Part shown: positions 21,277 to 27,495 of the stretch, piece by piece | Position numbering within the stretch: the stretch's first letter is position 1 | Layout of the letters: every line of letters starts with the position of its first letter | Source of the DNA: Clostridia bacterium | GTDB lineage: Bacteria > Bacillota > Clostridia > Oscillospirales > CAG-272 | DNA: 56,921 nucleotides | Direction: 5' to 3' | NCBI GenBank assembly: GCA_017547655.1 | Contig: JAFYPF010000015.1 | Span: 1 to 56,921, forward strand | The notes under the pieces: model-generated | Told to the model about the DNA's origin: nothing | Seen by the model: the letters and a program-made list of their open reading frames with translations, nothing else | The model's database searches: none | Program-made: the position numbers and the translations under genes

Positions 21277-22713
21277 TTACTGAATTGTTTTAAGCAACAT
21301 TTCGCGGAGTATCTGCGGATCACAGTTACCCTTAAGTTCTTTCATACACTTACCAAAGAGCGCCATAAGAGCTTTTTCTTTACCACTCTTAAAGTCTGCA
21401 ACAGACTTTTGATCTGCCGCAACCACAGCGTTAATAACGTCTTGAATCTTGCTTGTATCATTCGAAACGATAAATCCGTTTTCTTCTGCATACTTTTCGG
21501 GCTCAATATCATTTTCAAACATTTCGTCAAGAATCTTTCTTGCATTCGCATTTCCAACTTTACCGTCAGCAACAAGTTTGATAAGCTGTCCCAATGCCTT
21601 GCCGTTTATATCAAGCATATCTGCAGTAAGCTGTTTACGGTTCAAAACTTTCATACAGTTTGAAATAATCCAGTTAGCCGCTTCCTTTGCCATTCCGCAT
21701 TCAGCGTAAGCCTCTTCAAACACGTCGCAAAGTGCGCGGCTTTCGGTAAGAAGATCGGCATCATATTCGCCAAGTCCAAGCTCTGTAATATATTTATCTT
21801 TTTTAACTTCGGGAAATTCGGGAAGTGACGCTTTGATTCCGTCAAACCACTCATCATCAATGCACACGGGCATAACGTTAGGATCGGGGAAATAGCGATA
21901 ATCACCCGCAGTCTCCTTATTTCTCATAGCAAAGCTCTTGCCCTTAATATCATCCCAACGGCGAGTTTCCTGAACAAGCTCTTCAGTACCATTTTCAATA
22001 GCATCAATATGTCTTGCCGTTTCATACTCAATTGCACGTTCAATAGCCGAAATAGAGTTCATATTCTTCATTTCGGTTCTTACACCGAGAACGTTGCTTC
22101 CTTCAGGTCTTACGGAAAGGTTAACGTCGCAACGCATAGAGCCCTGCTCCATACGACACTCGGAAACCTTTGCAAAACGAAGCAAAGAACGGAGTCTTTC
22201 AAGGTATGCAACAACTTCTTCTGCGCTTGACAAATCGGGTTGGCTTACGATTTCGATAAGCGGAACAGACGTACGGTTGAAGTCAACAAACGTCGTGTTC
22301 GTCCAATCATCGTGAACGAGTTTACCTGCGTCCTCTTCCATGTGTATCTGCTTAATTCTGATATCCTTTTCGCCCTTTGAGGTGTTAATTCTTACCGTAC
22401 CGTTTACGGCAACGGGAGAAAACCACTGTGTTGTCTGATATGAACCGGGAAGATCGGGATAGTAGTAACTCTTCTTGTCAAAGGTTGTAACGCGGTTAAT
22501 ATCGCAGTTAAGCATCATACCCGCAGTCATACCGAGGTCAACAACATGCTTGTTAACAACGGGAAGCATACCGGGCATACCGCAGCATGCGGGACATACG
22601 TGGTCATTCTGTTCTCCACCAAACTTTGCAGAACAAGAACAGAAAATTTTGGATTCGGTAGCAAGTTCAATGTGAACTTCCAAACCGATGACCGTCTCGT
22701 ATTTAGTTGCCAT
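21277..22713 (-). CDS. gatB: Asp-tRNA(Asn)/Glu-tRNA(Gln) amidotransferase subunit B
   Basis: A 478-aa subunit that phosphorylates the mischarged aminoacyl-tRNA and transfers ammonia to it. The ATPase/transamidase residues appear intact: GLEVHIEL at the N-terminus, YYYPDLPGSYQ, HMEEDAGK and MEQGSMRCDVN. The zinc-type Cys cluster CSC...CPACC (about residues 24-45) is present, as are the C-terminal helical and YqeY tail domains. Start and gatA stop overlap by one base (TAATG), so the two are translationally coupled. Its intactness contrasts with the degenerate GatA upstream. Confidence 0.97.
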   Translation of the reverse strand: MATKYETVIGLEVHIELATESKIFCSCSAKFGGEQNDHVCPACCGMPGMLPVVNKHVVDLGMTAGMMLNCDINRVTTFDKKSYYYPDLPGSYQTTQWFSPVAVNGTVRINTSKGEKDIRIKQIHMEEDAGKLVHDDWTNTTFVDFNRTSVPLIEIVSQPDLSSAEEVVAYLERLRSLLRFAKVSECRMEQGSMRCDVNLSVRPEGSNVLGVRTEMKNMNSISAIERAIEYETARHIDAIENGTEELVQETRRWDDIKGKSFAMRNKETAGDYRYFPDPNVMPVCIDDEWFDGIKASLPEFPEVKKDKYITELGLGEYDADLLTESRALCDVFEEAYAECGMAKEAANWIISNCMKVLNRKQLTADMLDINGKALGQLIKLVADGKVGNANARKILDEMFENDIEPEKYAEENGFIVSNDTSKIQDVINAVVAADQKSVADFKSGKEKALMALFGKCMKELKGNCDPQILREMLLKTIQ

Positions 22714-23918
22714 TACTTGCCAACTCCTTCCAATTTACTTGCAATATCAAGTAACGTATTTTCCGAAAATGCCTTTCCGATAAACTGTACGCCACCTGCA
22801 ACAACTGCCGGAAGACCGGTTATCGATGCGGGAGCAGTATAGAGGTTTTCATCATAAGCAATATATTTATTTGCATCGGTATCAGCCTTTGTGTATGCAT
22901 TCTTTGCACTTGCAGGAAGAAGAACAGCATCAAAGGATTCAAATATTTCAGCAAACTTTTCTACTATAATACGTCGGATACGGAGACCTTTATCATACAT
23001 CTTCATATAATTATCGGTCGAAAGTGTTTCCGAACCGAACAAAATAGCAGTTTTGAGAAGCTCACCAAAAGCTTCTGTACGGCTATTCGTGTAAAGTTCA
23101 TCGATAGTTGTATAGTTAGGTGTTCTGTAACCGTATTTAACGCCGTCGTAACGAGATACGTTGTTGCAAAGTTCAGCCGACATAAGAATATTCCAAGCTG
23201 ATTTTGCAACTGAAAGAACGCTGTCGTCAATTTCGCAAACCTCAATACCGTTCGCTTCGAGAACCGACTTAACCTCTTCTATCTTTGATTTTACGGAGTC
23301 CTCTGCGCTGTCTGTAATAGATTTTGCAATAGCAATCTTTTTAGCAGGAGAAAATTCTGCATTTGATTTAAGCAATGCGCACTTCTCTTCCGAAAGGCTC
23401 GTACCGTCTTTGTCATCATGACCTACAATCACGTCAAGCACTTCCTTTACTGCATCAACAGTATTAGCCGTTACACTTACAGCCTCGCCCGAACAAGCGA
23501 TAGAAATTGTACCGAAACGGCTTACAGTTCCGTAAGTAGGCTTAACGCATATCTGACCGTTCAACGCGGCAGCTCTTCTCGAAGTACCGTTTGCATCAAG
23601 TCCGATAGCAGCCAACGCTTCGCCAATCTTTACAATTTCGGAAGATGCAGTAATCAATGTCCCGTCATTTCTTTCGATTGCGCCAAAATAAGATGTTTCA
23701 CCGAGAAGGTCGATACAAAGTTCACCAACCTTTGCCTTTCCGCCTATAGAGTAGCCCCCATTGGTAAGTCTGTCTACCACTTCTGCATTAAATAGGCTCA
23801 TATACCCGTCAAGCATCTTTGAACCTGCAGCGGTAGGATAATCCTTTGTCAAAATCATATCGTCAAGAGCAATGATTTTTCCTGTCGCTTTTTCATTTTT
23901 AGTGATATAAAGTTCCAT
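22713..23918 (-). CDS. gatA: GatA-like subunit with a degenerate amidase active site
   Basis: A 401-aa homologue in the gatA position of aspS-gatC-gatA-gatB. Similarity to GatA is clear in VKPTYGTVSRFG (125-136), DKDGTS, SRYDGVKYGYR and VQFIGKAFSENTLL. However, about 70 N-terminal residues are missing (usual length about 485) and the amidase signature is lost. Aligning by KPTYG and the IKDN region, catalytic Lys becomes Asp19 (ALDDMI), the cis-Ser of GGSSGGS becomes Ile89 within GTLITAS, and the nucleophile of DTGGS becomes Thr112 (DANGT). The frame is uninterrupted with AAGGAG upstream, so it is expressed rather than decayed. It probably keeps a structural role without glutaminase activity; this is inference. 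Confidence 0.85.
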   Translation of the reverse strand: MELYITKNEKATGKIIALDDMILTKDYPTAAGSKMLDGYMSLFNAEVVDRLTNGGYSIGGKAKVGELCIDLLGETSYFGAIERNDGTLITASSEIVKIGEALAAIGLDANGTSRRAAALNGQICVKPTYGTVSRFGTISIACSGEAVSVTANTVDAVKEVLDVIVGHDDKDGTSLSEEKCALLKSNAEFSPAKKIAIAKSITDSAEDSVKSKIEEVKSVLEANGIEVCEIDDSVLSVAKSAWNILMSAELCNNVSRYDGVKYGYRTPNYTTIDELYTNSRTEAFGELLKTAILFGSETLSTDNYMKMYDKGLRIRRIIVEKFAEIFESFDAVLLPASAKNAYTKADTDANKYIAYDENLYTAPASITGLPAVVAGGVQFIGKAFSENTLLDIASKLEGVGK

Positions 23919-23941: not shown

Positions 23942-24223
23942 TTATTCAACAAGGCGAGGTACCTGCCAGTACCCTTCCGTTGTCTCGGGAGCGCCTTTTT
24001 GAAGGTCTTCTCTTGAATATTTCTTTATCACCTTATCCTCACGAACAACCGTAAGAATAGGCATAACGTGAACCATACGTTCTGTTTCGTCTGTATTTAT
24101 GGAATTAAGAACGTCCATTTCATTTTCCTGCTTCGCATAGAAAGCAAGAAATGCTTCTTTTTCCTGTTCGGTAAGCTGAAGCTGATTAAGTTTTTCGAGT
24201 CTGCGTAAAATCTCTCTGTCCAT
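23942..24223 (-). CDS. gatC: Asp-tRNA(Asn)/Glu-tRNA(Gln) amidotransferase subunit C
   Basis: A 93-aa clamp subunit that wraps between GatA and GatB and stabilises the complex. The N-terminal helix (RLEKLNQLQLTEQEKEAF) and the C-terminal GYWQVPRLVE, matching the family's conserved V-P-R-V-[VI]-E end, identify it. GGAGG lies nine bases before the ATG, and the gene starts 14 bases after the aspS stop. GatC binds GatA through its middle loop; whether those contacts persist with this short GatA would need modelling. Confidence 0.93.
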   Translation of the reverse strand: MDREILRRLEKLNQLQLTEQEKEAFLAFYAKQENEMDVLNSINTDETERMVHVMPILTVVREDKVIKKYSREDLQKGAPETTEGYWQVPRLVE

Positions 24224-24237
24224 ACGCCAAGACCTCC

Positions 24238-25968
24238 TTAGTCTCTAACTTTAATATGAACCTCACGGAGCTGTTGCTCTGTTACTTCTCCGGGAGCACC
24301 CATCATAACGTCTTGAGCATTACCGTTCAAGGGGAATGCAATTACGTCACGGATAGTATCTTCTTCGGCAATAAGCATAACGATTCTGTCAATACCGGGC
24401 GCCATACCTGCATGAGGAGGAGCACCAAATGAGAATGCGGTATACAATGCGCCAAACTTGGATTTAACATCTTCTTCGCCATAGCCTGCAATTTCAAACG
24501 CCTTCTTCATAATATCTGGGTTGTGGTTACGTACAGCGCCCGAAGAAAGCTCAACACCGTTACATACGATATCATACTGATACGCAAATATATCAAGCGG
24601 ATCTTTGGTGTTAAGAGCTTCAAGACCACCCTGAGGCATTGAGAAGGGGTTGTGTGTGAAGTCAATCTTCTTCGCTTCTTCGTTGTATTCGTACATGGGG
24701 AAATCAACAATATAGCAGAATTCAAAGCTGTCTTTCTTGATTATATCAAGTTCGTTACCGAGCCAAGTTCTGATTTCACCTGCAAGCTTGTTTACAACTG
24801 CGGGAGCATCACAAATAAAGAATACCGTTTCGCCTTCTTTGATTCCGGTAATTTCTTTAAGCTGAACTTTCTGTTCGTCCAAAAGGAACTTTGCTATAGG
24901 ACCTTTGTATTCTTCTCCTACAAGAGTAAGATATCCAAGACCTTTCATGCCAATGCTTGTAGCAAACTTAAGCGAATCTTCAAAAAATTTCTTTGACTTG
25001 CCCTGACAGTCTGCAACAATACCACGAACGGGTTTACCCTTGAATATCGGGAAATCAACACCTTCAAAAAATTCTGTCAAATCACAAATAACAAGGGGGT
25101 TACGAAGGTCAGGCTTATCCGAACCGTATTTCAACATAGCTTCGTTGAAAGGAATTCTTCTGAAAGGAGGCTTTGAAACTTCCTTGTCGGAGAACTTACT
25201 GAAAGTATTGTAAAGAACTGTTTCGCCTACCTCAAGTACATCTTCCTGAGTAGCAAATGACATTTCATAGTCGAGCTGATAGAATTCACCGGGCGAACGG
25301 TCCTGACGTGCATCTTCATCACGGAAGCAAGGAGCAATCTGGAAGTATCTGTCAAAGCCCGATGTCATAAGAAGCTGTTTAAACTGTTGAGGCGCCTGAG
25401 GAAGCGCATAGAATTTACCCTTATGCTTACGGCTGGGTACAAGATAGTCTCTTGCGCCTTCGGGCGAAGATGCGGTAAGAATAGGAGTCTGTATTTCAAG
25501 GAATCCCAAGCCTTCCATCTGGCTGCGGATAAAGTTAATAATCTTGCTGCGAAGAACGATATTGTTGTGAATAGCGGGATTTCTGAGGTCGAGAAAACGA
25601 TACTTAAGTCTAACGTCTTCTCTTGTCTGCGTAGATGCAGAAATTTCAAAAGGAAGTGCGTTACGGCAAGGACCGAGTATTTCAAGGCTCTCTACCTTAA
25701 CTTCAACATATCCCGTCGCAAGTTTTTCATTTACTGTTTCTTCATCTCTTTTAGCTACAATACCCTTTACTGCAACAACTGTCTCCTTTGTTACATCGTT
25801 AAGAAGGCTGTCATCGGACAAAACCGTCTGTGTTACGCCATAGTGGTCGCGGAGGTCAACGAAAATAACACCGCCGTGGTCTCTTATTGTGTCTACCCAA
25901 CCTGCCAAAACAACGCTCTGGCCGATATGCTCAACACCGATTTCATTACAAGTATGAGTTCTGATCAT
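24238..25968 (-). CDS. aspS: Aspartyl-tRNA synthetase, apparently non-discriminating
   Basis: A 576-aa bacterial-type AspRS: N-terminal OB-fold anticodon domain, class II motifs (FLEIQTPIL; FRDEDARQDRSPGEFYQLD; GMAPGIDRIVML) and an inserted GAD domain at about residues 290-410. The OB-fold loop reads IRDHGG with His31; His here marks non-discriminating enzymes, whereas Leu is typical of tRNA(Asp)-specific ones. Such an enzyme makes Asp-tRNA(Asn), which GatCAB must amidate. The operon aspS-gatC-gatA-gatB and its AAC-type T-box agree. GGGAG lies nine bases before the ATG. Confidence 0.96.
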   Translation of the reverse strand: MIRTHTCNEIGVEHIGQSVVLAGWVDTIRDHGGVIFVDLRDHYGVTQTVLSDDSLLNDVTKETVVAVKGIVAKRDEETVNEKLATGYVEVKVESLEILGPCRNALPFEISASTQTREDVRLKYRFLDLRNPAIHNNIVLRSKIINFIRSQMEGLGFLEIQTPILTASSPEGARDYLVPSRKHKGKFYALPQAPQQFKQLLMTSGFDRYFQIAPCFRDEDARQDRSPGEFYQLDYEMSFATQEDVLEVGETVLYNTFSKFSDKEVSKPPFRRIPFNEAMLKYGSDKPDLRNPLVICDLTEFFEGVDFPIFKGKPVRGIVADCQGKSKKFFEDSLKFATSIGMKGLGYLTLVGEEYKGPIAKFLLDEQKVQLKEITGIKEGETVFFICDAPAVVNKLAGEIRTWLGNELDIIKKDSFEFCYIVDFPMYEYNEEAKKIDFTHNPFSMPQGGLEALNTKDPLDIFAYQYDIVCNGVELSSGAVRNHNPDIMKKAFEIAGYGEEDVKSKFGALYTAFSFGAPPHAGMAPGIDRIVMLIAEEDTIRDVIAFPLNGNAQDVMMGAPGEVTEQQLREVHIKVRD

Positions 25969-26035: not shown

Positions 26036-26315
26036 AACAAAAAGAAGACGCCCTTTTATCCCACAAAACTATGGGACGAAAGTCATCTTCCGCGATACCA
26101 CCCATATTGACATTTCGTAACAACAAAATGCCCTCTCATTTCAACGCACTGTCGTGGCGTCAGCCGTGCAATTCTAATCACCGCAAAACAAAAGCGGTTT
26201 TCTTTTGCATACTCCGAAGTGTTTTTCACTAAAGCTCTTCATACCGTACTTTCACCTTACAACGGCTCTCTGAATGAAGTATTCTGAAGCTACTCTCTTC
26301 ATCATCGCACTAATT
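26036..26315 (-). ncRNA. T-box riboswitch controlling aspS-gatCAB, apparent Asn specifier
   Basis: Read leftward the leader contains every T-box landmark: GAAGAGAGTA and CAGAGAGCC of stem I, the apical GGTGAAAG, the specifier side AAAAACACTTCGGAGT, and the antiterminator T-box GGGTGGTATCGCGG (26103-26090). A terminator follows, GAAGATGAC... with ...GCGTCTTC and TTTTT (26092-26036). The triplet before A-CTTCGGAG is AAC (26223-26221), an Asn codon; no Asp codon occurs there. A GAA (26227-26225) lies just upstream in the same loop. The T-box reads TGGTATCGCG where TGGNACCGCG is usual. Uncharged tRNA(Asn) should therefore induce the operon. Confidence 0.88.
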
Positions 26316-26406: not shown

Positions 26407-27495
26407 CTACTCTCCGTAAACGAATTCAAAGTTAATATTTTCACCTAAAAAATCAATCAGTTTTTCATTTTCTAATCCCAAAGATACACCGACAACACAC
26501 TTGACGTAAGCCGCCTCAAGCGTTGTCCCAAACAAGCCGAACGCACCGTTTCGCAACGCATCTCCTGTACTTGTGTAAGTATATGCATCTTTGTTGCAAG
26601 GCGATATTACCACAGGAATATTCAACATTTTAGCCTTTTTGAGCAAATACAGTATTGAGCTGTCAGTATAATTATCGTTTATTTCATTAGGCTTTTTTCG
26701 CTCAACACAGACTGTATCCGAGTGATAACTGCCGTGAACAACAGCCTTAACGTCACCTAAATCAATCCTTGAATATTTTAGTCCAACGTATGCTTGAATC
26801 AGCATAACCCCATCAGAAACAGTTGTAATTTTATCAAGCAAAAAACTATCTGTTTCAAACGCTCTGCCCTGCAATTTTGCATTATTTATATCGATAATCG
26901 CTTCAGCATCTTCGCTGTAAAAATTGTGGTTATAGTTAGCGCATTGCAAAATATGCGAACCATAATGAACAAGCAATTTACCGTTTGAATTAAAAGGATC
27001 ATGCGAGTCAAGCATATTGCGGTAAACAACGTATACATTGGGCGCAATTCCGTTCATTATAAGTTCAACGGAAGCTCTGAAATTAACGTGCCCGTTGGAT
27101 TCTATATACGATAAATCAAGCTGTGCCGAAACCATACAAACAGGGGTAGGCGCACCTGCAAGAATAAACGACAAAAGTGAAGACGTATATGCAAGTGTAT
27201 CTGTTCCGTGAAGAATAATTATTCCTTTGTAAGCAGTCCATATCGACCTATCACGGAATATGTCAATAAGCTCATTCCAAACGGATACAGTCATATTCTC
27301 ACTCAATATATCTTCCGAGAGAGACTTCGTATCAAAATCAACCGCATCGGCAAAAGGAGAATTTGAAGCTTTAAAGAATGATATAATTTTTTTACTTGCA
27401 TTTTTTGCGTTGGACTGATTTTCGTTATTGTCATCAGCCTCGGAGCATATTGTACCGCCCGTCAAAATCACAAGTATCTTTTCTCTATCGCTCAT
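26407..27495 (-). CDS. ansA: L-asparaginase (type I-like)
   Basis: A 362-aa cytoplasmic asparaginase hydrolysing asparagine to aspartate and ammonia. The first catalytic Thr lies in LVILTGGTICS near residue 12 and the second in LHGTDTLAYTSS near 98; TTVSD and the C-terminal region complete the fold. Slightly longer than typical, with a polar insert (residues 21-37) after the first motif. AGGGG precedes the ATG and a TTGACT-17-TATAAT promoter is at 27540-27568. It lies directly upstream of the Asn-tRNA operon on the same strand; 55 bases separate its stop from the operon promoter. Confidence 0.88.
   Translation of the reverse strand: MSDREKILVILTGGTICSEADDNNENQSNAKNASKKIISFFKASNSPFADAVDFDTKSLSEDILSENMTVSVWNELIDIFRDRSIWTAYKGIIILHGTDTLAYTSSLLSFILAGAPTPVCMVSAQLDLSYIESNGHVNFRASVELIMNGIAPNVYVVYRNMLDSHDPFNSNGKLLVHYGSHILQCANYNHNFYSEDAEAIIDINNAKLQGRAFETDSFLLDKITTVSDGVMLIQAYVGLKYSRIDLGDVKAVVHGSYHSDTVCVERKKPNEINDNYTDSSILYLLKKAKMLNIPVVISPCNKDAYTYTSTGDALRNGAFGLFGTTLEAAYVKCVVGVSLGLENEKLIDFLGENINFEFVYGE

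Follow-up and report, generated by a model that had tools for sequence, protein, structure and literature searches.

The window, a contig of 56,921 nucleotides from a clostridial genome analysed here at its full length, carries on its minus strand an aspS-gatC-gatA-gatB operon whose GatA lacks both the catalytic triad and the glutamine-binding residues of its family. We refer to this triad-less protein of 401 aa and its relatives as GatA*. In the order of transcription, an asparaginase-like gene is followed by a T-box leader, aspS, gatC, gatA* and gatB, with the following assignments:

22713..23918, minus strand: gatA*, a GatA without the Lys-cisSer-Ser triad and without the glutamine-binding Tyr, Arg and Asp, by profile searches and alignment to S. 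aureus GatA; the sole PF01425 match in the genome
21277..22713, minus strand: gatB, the transamidase/kinase subunit (478 aa), exceeding the NCBIfam cut-off
23942..24223, minus strand: gatC (93 aa), with a TIGR00135 score of 59.7 bits against a cut-off of 47.1
24238..25968, minus strand: aspS2, the operon AspRS with an RDHGG motif (576 aa), by profile searches and motif reading
26069..26314, minus strand: T-box leader before aspS2, with the specifier AAC (Asn) by the cmscan alignment (RF00230, 104.2 bits, gathering threshold 93)
26407..27495, minus strand: a divergent asparaginase/GatD-like gene (362 aa) upstream of the T-box, with Gln184 at the position of the catalytic Lys, by profile and structure-sequence comparisons

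The original prediction, made from the DNA letters, had singled out the altered GatA but passed over the asparaginase/GatD-like neighbour, the T-box and a second AspRS encoded elsewhere in the genome.

Loss of the catalytic triad and glutamine site in GatA*

In S. aureus GatA, Lys79, Ser154 and Ser178 form the Lys-cisSer-Ser triad, and Tyr309, Arg358 and Asp425 bind the glutamine. When the GatA* of the window is aligned to that protein (PDB 2df4, positions counted along the alignment), Lys79 is replaced by Asp19 and Ser178 by Thr112, the GGSSGGS loop carrying the cis-Ser154 is absent, and in the glutamine site Tyr309 gives way to Trp242, Arg358 to Ala291 and Asp425 to Asn358. No intact triad can be placed, which bears out the loss originally predicted; the cis-Ser is indeed gone, but the residue facing it, then named as Ile89, is Ile or Leu depending on the alignment and never Ser. 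The N-terminal shortfall, put earlier at about 70 residues, is nearer to 60 by sequence (query residue 13 corresponds to chain residue 73 of 2df4) and to 40 by structure (residue 1 of the model corresponds to chain residue 40). The GatA fold is retained, and the protein scores 259.6 bits against the 481.1-bit cut-off of the NCBIfam GatA equivalog. As had been stated, the frame of 401 aa is clean, with a good ribosome-binding site (AAGGAGAG, 9 nt before the ATG) and coupling to gatB through a one-base overlap (TAATG).

PMC4027206 gives equivalents of the Lys, both Ser, the Arg and the Asp for yeast GatFAB, describes those of Arg358 and Asp425 as holding the glutamine, and reports that ammonium chloride supports transamidation once the glutaminase is bypassed.

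A conserved family under purifying selection

When the GTDB species genomes were scanned once with a GatA* alignment of eight rows, at least 535 confirmed relatives were recovered, not all of which are necessarily triad-less. The best 80 of these were taken as loci for comparison; to judge by their titles they stem mostly from gut Clostridia of animals, six being from Eggerthellaceae or Coriobacteriaceae. With eight further rows, and one locus present in two pieces, they make up 89 non-canonical rows, some organisms appearing twice. In these rows, position 79 is D in 82, E in 4 and N, G or a gap in 3, never Lys; position 154 is never Ser (0/89); position 178 is A in 35, S in 26, T in 18, Y in 6 and another residue or a gap in 4; position 309 is W in 87 and Tyr in 1; position 358 is never Arg (0/89); and position 425 is N in 59 and S in 22, with no Asp. 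All six residues are present in every one of the 15 canonical GatA rows, which were chosen by a GGSSGG-type motif, so that the comparison at Ser154 is partly circular. Among the rows left out by this choice, the full triad of Lys, Ser and Ser is present in L016, L018, L019 and L020; the fragments L017 and L030 keep the triad residues where covered, and L029, a different amidase, has them too.

The ratio of nonsynonymous to synonymous substitution (dN/dS, by NG86) for gatA* is 0.05-0.12 in eight pairs; for the window and its nearest relative it is 0.10, and 0.025 for gatB of the same pair. The recurrence of the same losses in 80 loci, at these ratios, led us to reject a pseudogene or an assembly error, and upholds the earlier view that the gene has not simply decayed. 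On these alignments, the loss of the triad and glutamine site is a property of a conserved GatA family. No report of such a triad-less family was found among open-licence PMC papers (including PMC4027206, PMC8406222, PMC4206432 and PMC8256714), a weak negative drawn from partial listings and the openings of abstracts.

Further, replacements specific to GatA*, among them Asp19, Asn110, Arg115, Glu145, Trp242 and Glu357, are fixed in more than 90% of 87 rows. This degree of fixation would suit a rebuilt pocket with a new chemistry that draws on some other nitrogen donor. However, a conserved nucleophile is lacking, position 178 being A, S, T, Y, M or E, and the fixed residues would equally fit a pocket that has been filled in; we regard such a new chemistry as improbable.

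A few loci depart from the common pattern. An in-frame TAG interrupts an otherwise full gatA* at L127:9772-9774, reflecting an error or fresh decay, and one stop was counted inside the match for each of G158, G184, G017, G358 and G560, the coordinates suggesting that the one in G017 is the gene's own end. At L126:4577-10970, two gatCAB sets lie in tandem, the first with GatA* and the second with a canonical GatA. Separately, L038:9335-10441 (genome G036, contig C13) encodes a triad-less GatA-like protein of 368 aa with an N-terminus that by eye resembles the end of GatC, with no adjoining gatB; G036 additionally encodes a canonical GatCAB. An even shorter GatA, of 293 aa, is found at L037:6857-7738 (G040, contig C31) in an aspS-gatC-gatA-gatB operon; the G040 genome has an AsnRS and no PF00710 gene.

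The operon as the visible route to Asn-tRNA

The window's genome measures 1.39 Mb and is 84.57% complete. A PF01425 search identifies gatA* as its sole Amidase gene, in line with the original proviso that this be the only GatA, and no second gatA was found. Three class II synthetases of the relevant kind are present, which their lengths identify as two AspRS and a LysRS, and AsnRS was not found in this genome (best match 5.7e-28). The two PF00749 genes are by score and length GluRS and GlnRS, hence the complex need serve Asn only.

The same pattern extends to an order sample of 295 genomes, in which GatA* was called at an A2 score above 370 bits (E below 1e-100; the canonical rows listed score below 280) and a genome was classed as AsnRS-less when its best TIGR00457 match was weaker than 1e-40, both cut-offs having been set after seeing the data. 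GatA* occurs in 15 genomes, and AsnRS was found in none of the 15 (best matches 1e-27 to 1e-34). Across the sample, 51 genomes are AsnRS-less; AsnRS is over the cut-off in 216 of the 295, and 28 with middling sub-cut-off scores are counted among the 244 others. The association of GatA* with AsnRS loss gives a Fisher p of 5e-13; as the sampled genomes are related, this and the other Fisher p values given here overstate the number of independent events. Since AsnRS is lacking in all 15, no means of making Asn-tRNA(Asn) other than this operon is visible in GatA* genomes. Full-length AsnB was found in three of eight genomes checked (G000, G004, G018) and not in the other five (G001, G017, G045, G046, G058).

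A single match is found in 13 of the 15 genomes, G046 has one gene split between two contigs, and in G045 canonical pieces accompany GatA*. A hidden canonical gatA was dismissed, none having been found in the window's genome at 84.57% completeness either. The broader alternative, that the gene is decaying, misassembled or complemented by a canonical GatA not covered by the assembly, could draw on the incompleteness of the assembly and on the TAG in L127. Set against the shared losses, the low dN/dS and the fact that only G045 has canonical pieces in addition, it is very improbable.

RDHGG is present in the operon AspRS of all eight operons read (seven with GatA*, plus G040), and RDLG or RNLG in the second AspRS of all eight GatA* genomes read, the window's included; we take RDHGG to mark a non-discriminating and RDLG a discriminating AspRS. 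The tRNA-Asn of the window's genome has a U1-A72 pair, presumably the GatCAB identity pair, as does its tRNA-Gln. In PMC4206432, U1-A72 is tallied together with GatCAB, and Clostridiaceae have AsnRS alongside GatCAB, unlike the GatA* genomes.

A T-box core motif precedes aspS in 53 of the 60 loci with enough sequence, and cmscan finds a T-box in five of the seven loci searched (none in L142 and L145). A lax specifier pattern applied to the 53 leaders returned AAC in 19, GAA in 13 and one of four further triplets in 5, with no reading for the other 16; these readings are unusable, and only the AAC of the window is claimed. One GatA* subclade includes ten loci (L138-L146 and L148) that encode AspRS and GatC in a single open frame.

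GatB has changed alongside GatA*

GatB of the window has the catalytic domain (PF02934, 379 bits) and the YqeY-type domain (PF02637, 124.7 bits), and GatC exceeds its cut-off, so that the original description of both subunits as intact holds. GatB has nonetheless not stayed unchanged: it retains 92 of 107 canonical-invariant positions. Across the GatA* operons, none of the 79 rows has Lys at position 90 (numbering of the window's GatB), and Q235H is seen in 79 and D279N in 78 of the 79. More generally, residues 67, 80, 90, 149, 235 and 279 are invariant in canonical GatB and uniformly changed in GatA* operons; they may mark the old ammonia tunnel. GatB has changed in step with GatA*, as would be expected if ammonia no longer arrived by the old route.

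In a quick tree using 39 rows, the GatB proteins of GatA* operons form one clade (SH-aLRT 99), with that of G040 as sister. The GatB of the coriobacterial GatA* operons (L121, L128, L130, L131, L134, L136) is nested inside the clostridial clade, suggesting a transfer between phyla, which we consider likely.

A divergent asparaginase-like neighbour

The product of the gene upstream of the T-box keeps Thr, Thr and Asp of the Thr-Thr-Asp-Lys set, while the Lys (Lys162 of E. coli type II) is Gln, a replacement seen in 20 of 20 linked rows. Its matches to GatD start at residues 87-96 and the GatD N-terminal domain is absent; archaeal asparaginases score slightly above GatD, and its type I asparaginase score is 91.1 against 260.5. 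The gene is present in 16 of the 80 loci, or 14 of the 54 with both flanks. In eight of the 16 its start lies close to the end of gatB, from 9 nt ahead of it to 56 nt beyond it; in others it follows gatB by about 330 nt (two) or about 2-3 kb (two), it precedes aspS in three with a window-like arrangement, and in L088 it is distant and reversed. Clustering the open reading frames (ORFs) of the 80 loci in search of another donor found no cluster in more than 10 loci beyond the operon and this gene, the next being AraC-like (10) and AlaX-like (6), both named by eye. AlaX-like genes (alanyl-tRNA editing) also occur at L034:1675-2886 and L036:2157-3317; in these and in the six loci they stand after the operon or after the asparaginase-like gene.

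In a family sample of 295 genomes, with presence defined as an A4 E better than 1e-39, the gene occurs in 19 of 22 GatA* genomes as against 10 of 273 others (Fisher 7e-20). In the order sample, the class was defined as a PF00710 score of 76-125 bits (for G080, through a partial match within a frame of 271 aa), and it occurs in 12 of 15 GatA* genomes as against 9 of 280 others (Fisher 2e-13); both cut-offs were set after seeing the data. Among the GatA* genomes without it, G045 (97% complete) and G286 (72% complete) have no PF00710 match and G215 has only a canonical-type one. The gene lies on the GatA* contig in eight of the 15 (in G046, on the contig with the other gatA* piece and gatB), and, among the matches listed, on another contig than gatA in eight of the nine genomes that have the gene but not GatA*, the ninth being G150. 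Two genomes of the window's own genus, G001 and G004, encode a remote version with about 27% identity; that of G001 lies away from the operon, and the G004 contig breaks off within aspS.

Two accounts of this neighbour need to be weighed. In the first, it would be an asparagine-salvage enzyme that supplies AspRS and GatB with Asp and ammonia but does not bind to either. A cell that lacks AsnRS can use free Asn for protein synthesis only by first hydrolysing it to Asp and ammonia, and both of these feed the operon. The class does track AsnRS loss: it is present in 20 of the 51 AsnRS-less genomes, 8 of them among the 36 without GatA*, and in 1 of the 244 others. However, GatA* adds to the association within the AsnRS-less genomes (12/15 vs 8/36, p 2e-4), the gene shares the contig of GatA* in 8 of 15 genomes but lies apart from gatA in 8 of the 9 without GatA*, and the Lys to Gln change argues against a plain asparaginase. 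We rate salvage as possible, though less likely than not.

In the second account, the protein would be a real subunit or obligate partner that hydrolyses Gln or Asn and passes the ammonia to GatB. Archaeal GatD supplies GatE in this way, and a four-protein complex of GatCA*B with a GatD-like enzyme would be an independent bacterial counterpart of GatDE, with ammonia release coupled to the complex through the Lys to Gln change. Against such a partner stand that same change in all linked rows, the missing N-terminal domain and slightly better archaeal asparaginase matches, the position upstream of the T-box in the window, the unlinked divergent forms of G001 and G004, and the absence of the gene from three of the 15 GatA* genomes in the order sample and three of the 22 in the family sample; both the partner and the four-protein complex seem unlikely on balance. 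The straightforward idea that an asparaginase took the place of GatA is likewise weakened by these absences, by the Lys to Gln change and by the AsnRS-less genomes that have the gene without GatA*.

A probable glutaminase-dead asparagine transamidosome

The explanation that we favour, with a probability of roughly two in three, is an asparagine transamidosome with a glutaminase-dead GatA*, using ammonia made outside GatA. In this scheme, the operon AspRS would charge tRNA(Asn) with Asp, and GatB would activate the Asp side chain with ATP and amidate it with ammonia. GatA* and GatC would hold the complex together, the old glutamine pocket having presumably been filled in; that GatA* is structural and GatB is fed from elsewhere is put forward with fair confidence. 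Given the loss of the triad and glutamine site in the only visible route to Asn-tRNA, the nitrogen would have to come from outside GatA, perhaps as free ammonia or from the neighbouring asparaginase-like protein. The donor would be ammonia from the cellular pool, in most lineages probably supplemented by the asparaginase-like protein as a candidate source. The original proposal of a glutaminase-dead complex with GatA as scaffold is thus the best reading, in view of the single Amidase gene, the purifying selection, the relatives with the same losses, the missing AsnRS and the retained catalytic domain of GatB; the free ammonia of that proposal is a candidate donor.

Three points weigh against it. 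Asp19, Arg115, Glu145 and Trp242 are fixed more strictly than a scaffold requires, which might point to some other function of the pocket; the part of the genome missing at 84.57% completeness could contain a second gatA or an AsnRS; and G045 has canonical GatA pieces besides GatA*.

Comparison with known systems and implications

The bacterial GatCAB and asparagine transamidosome (PDB 4wj3, 3kfu, 2df4) differ from the GatA* complex, which has no triad, no glutamine site and about 60 fewer N-terminal residues. Archaeal GatDE (PDB 1zq1, 2d6f) resembles the window in pairing an asparaginase-fold protein with a GatB/GatE-type transamidase. Unlike GatDE, the window still has GatA and GatC, its GatB scores 120.7 bits on TIGR00134 against the GatE cut-off of 319.55, and its asparaginase-like protein lacks the GatD N-terminal domain and has Gln for Lys. 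The last feature also separates it from class 1 L-asparaginases (PDB 1wls, 5ot0), as does the type I score above; the position of the catalytic Tyr differs between types 1 and 2. A T-box controlled amidation operon is reported from Clostridium acetobutylicum (Saad 2012, as cited in PMC4206432), alike in its T-box and in tRNA-dependent Asn formation in a clostridium.

GatCAB is known as a glutamine-dependent enzyme with GatA as its glutaminase, and the GatA* clade is, to judge from its residues, catalytically dead. If so, an essential step of translation in many gut bacteria would run on another nitrogen source, and the GatA* operon offers a natural experiment on the non-glutaminase role of GatA and on the route of ammonia to GatB. 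With the asparaginase-like gene next door, convergence on a GatDE-type arrangement becomes a directly testable idea: if true, GatA would have given up glutamine hydrolysis and a separate asparaginase-fold partner would release the ammonia for GatB.
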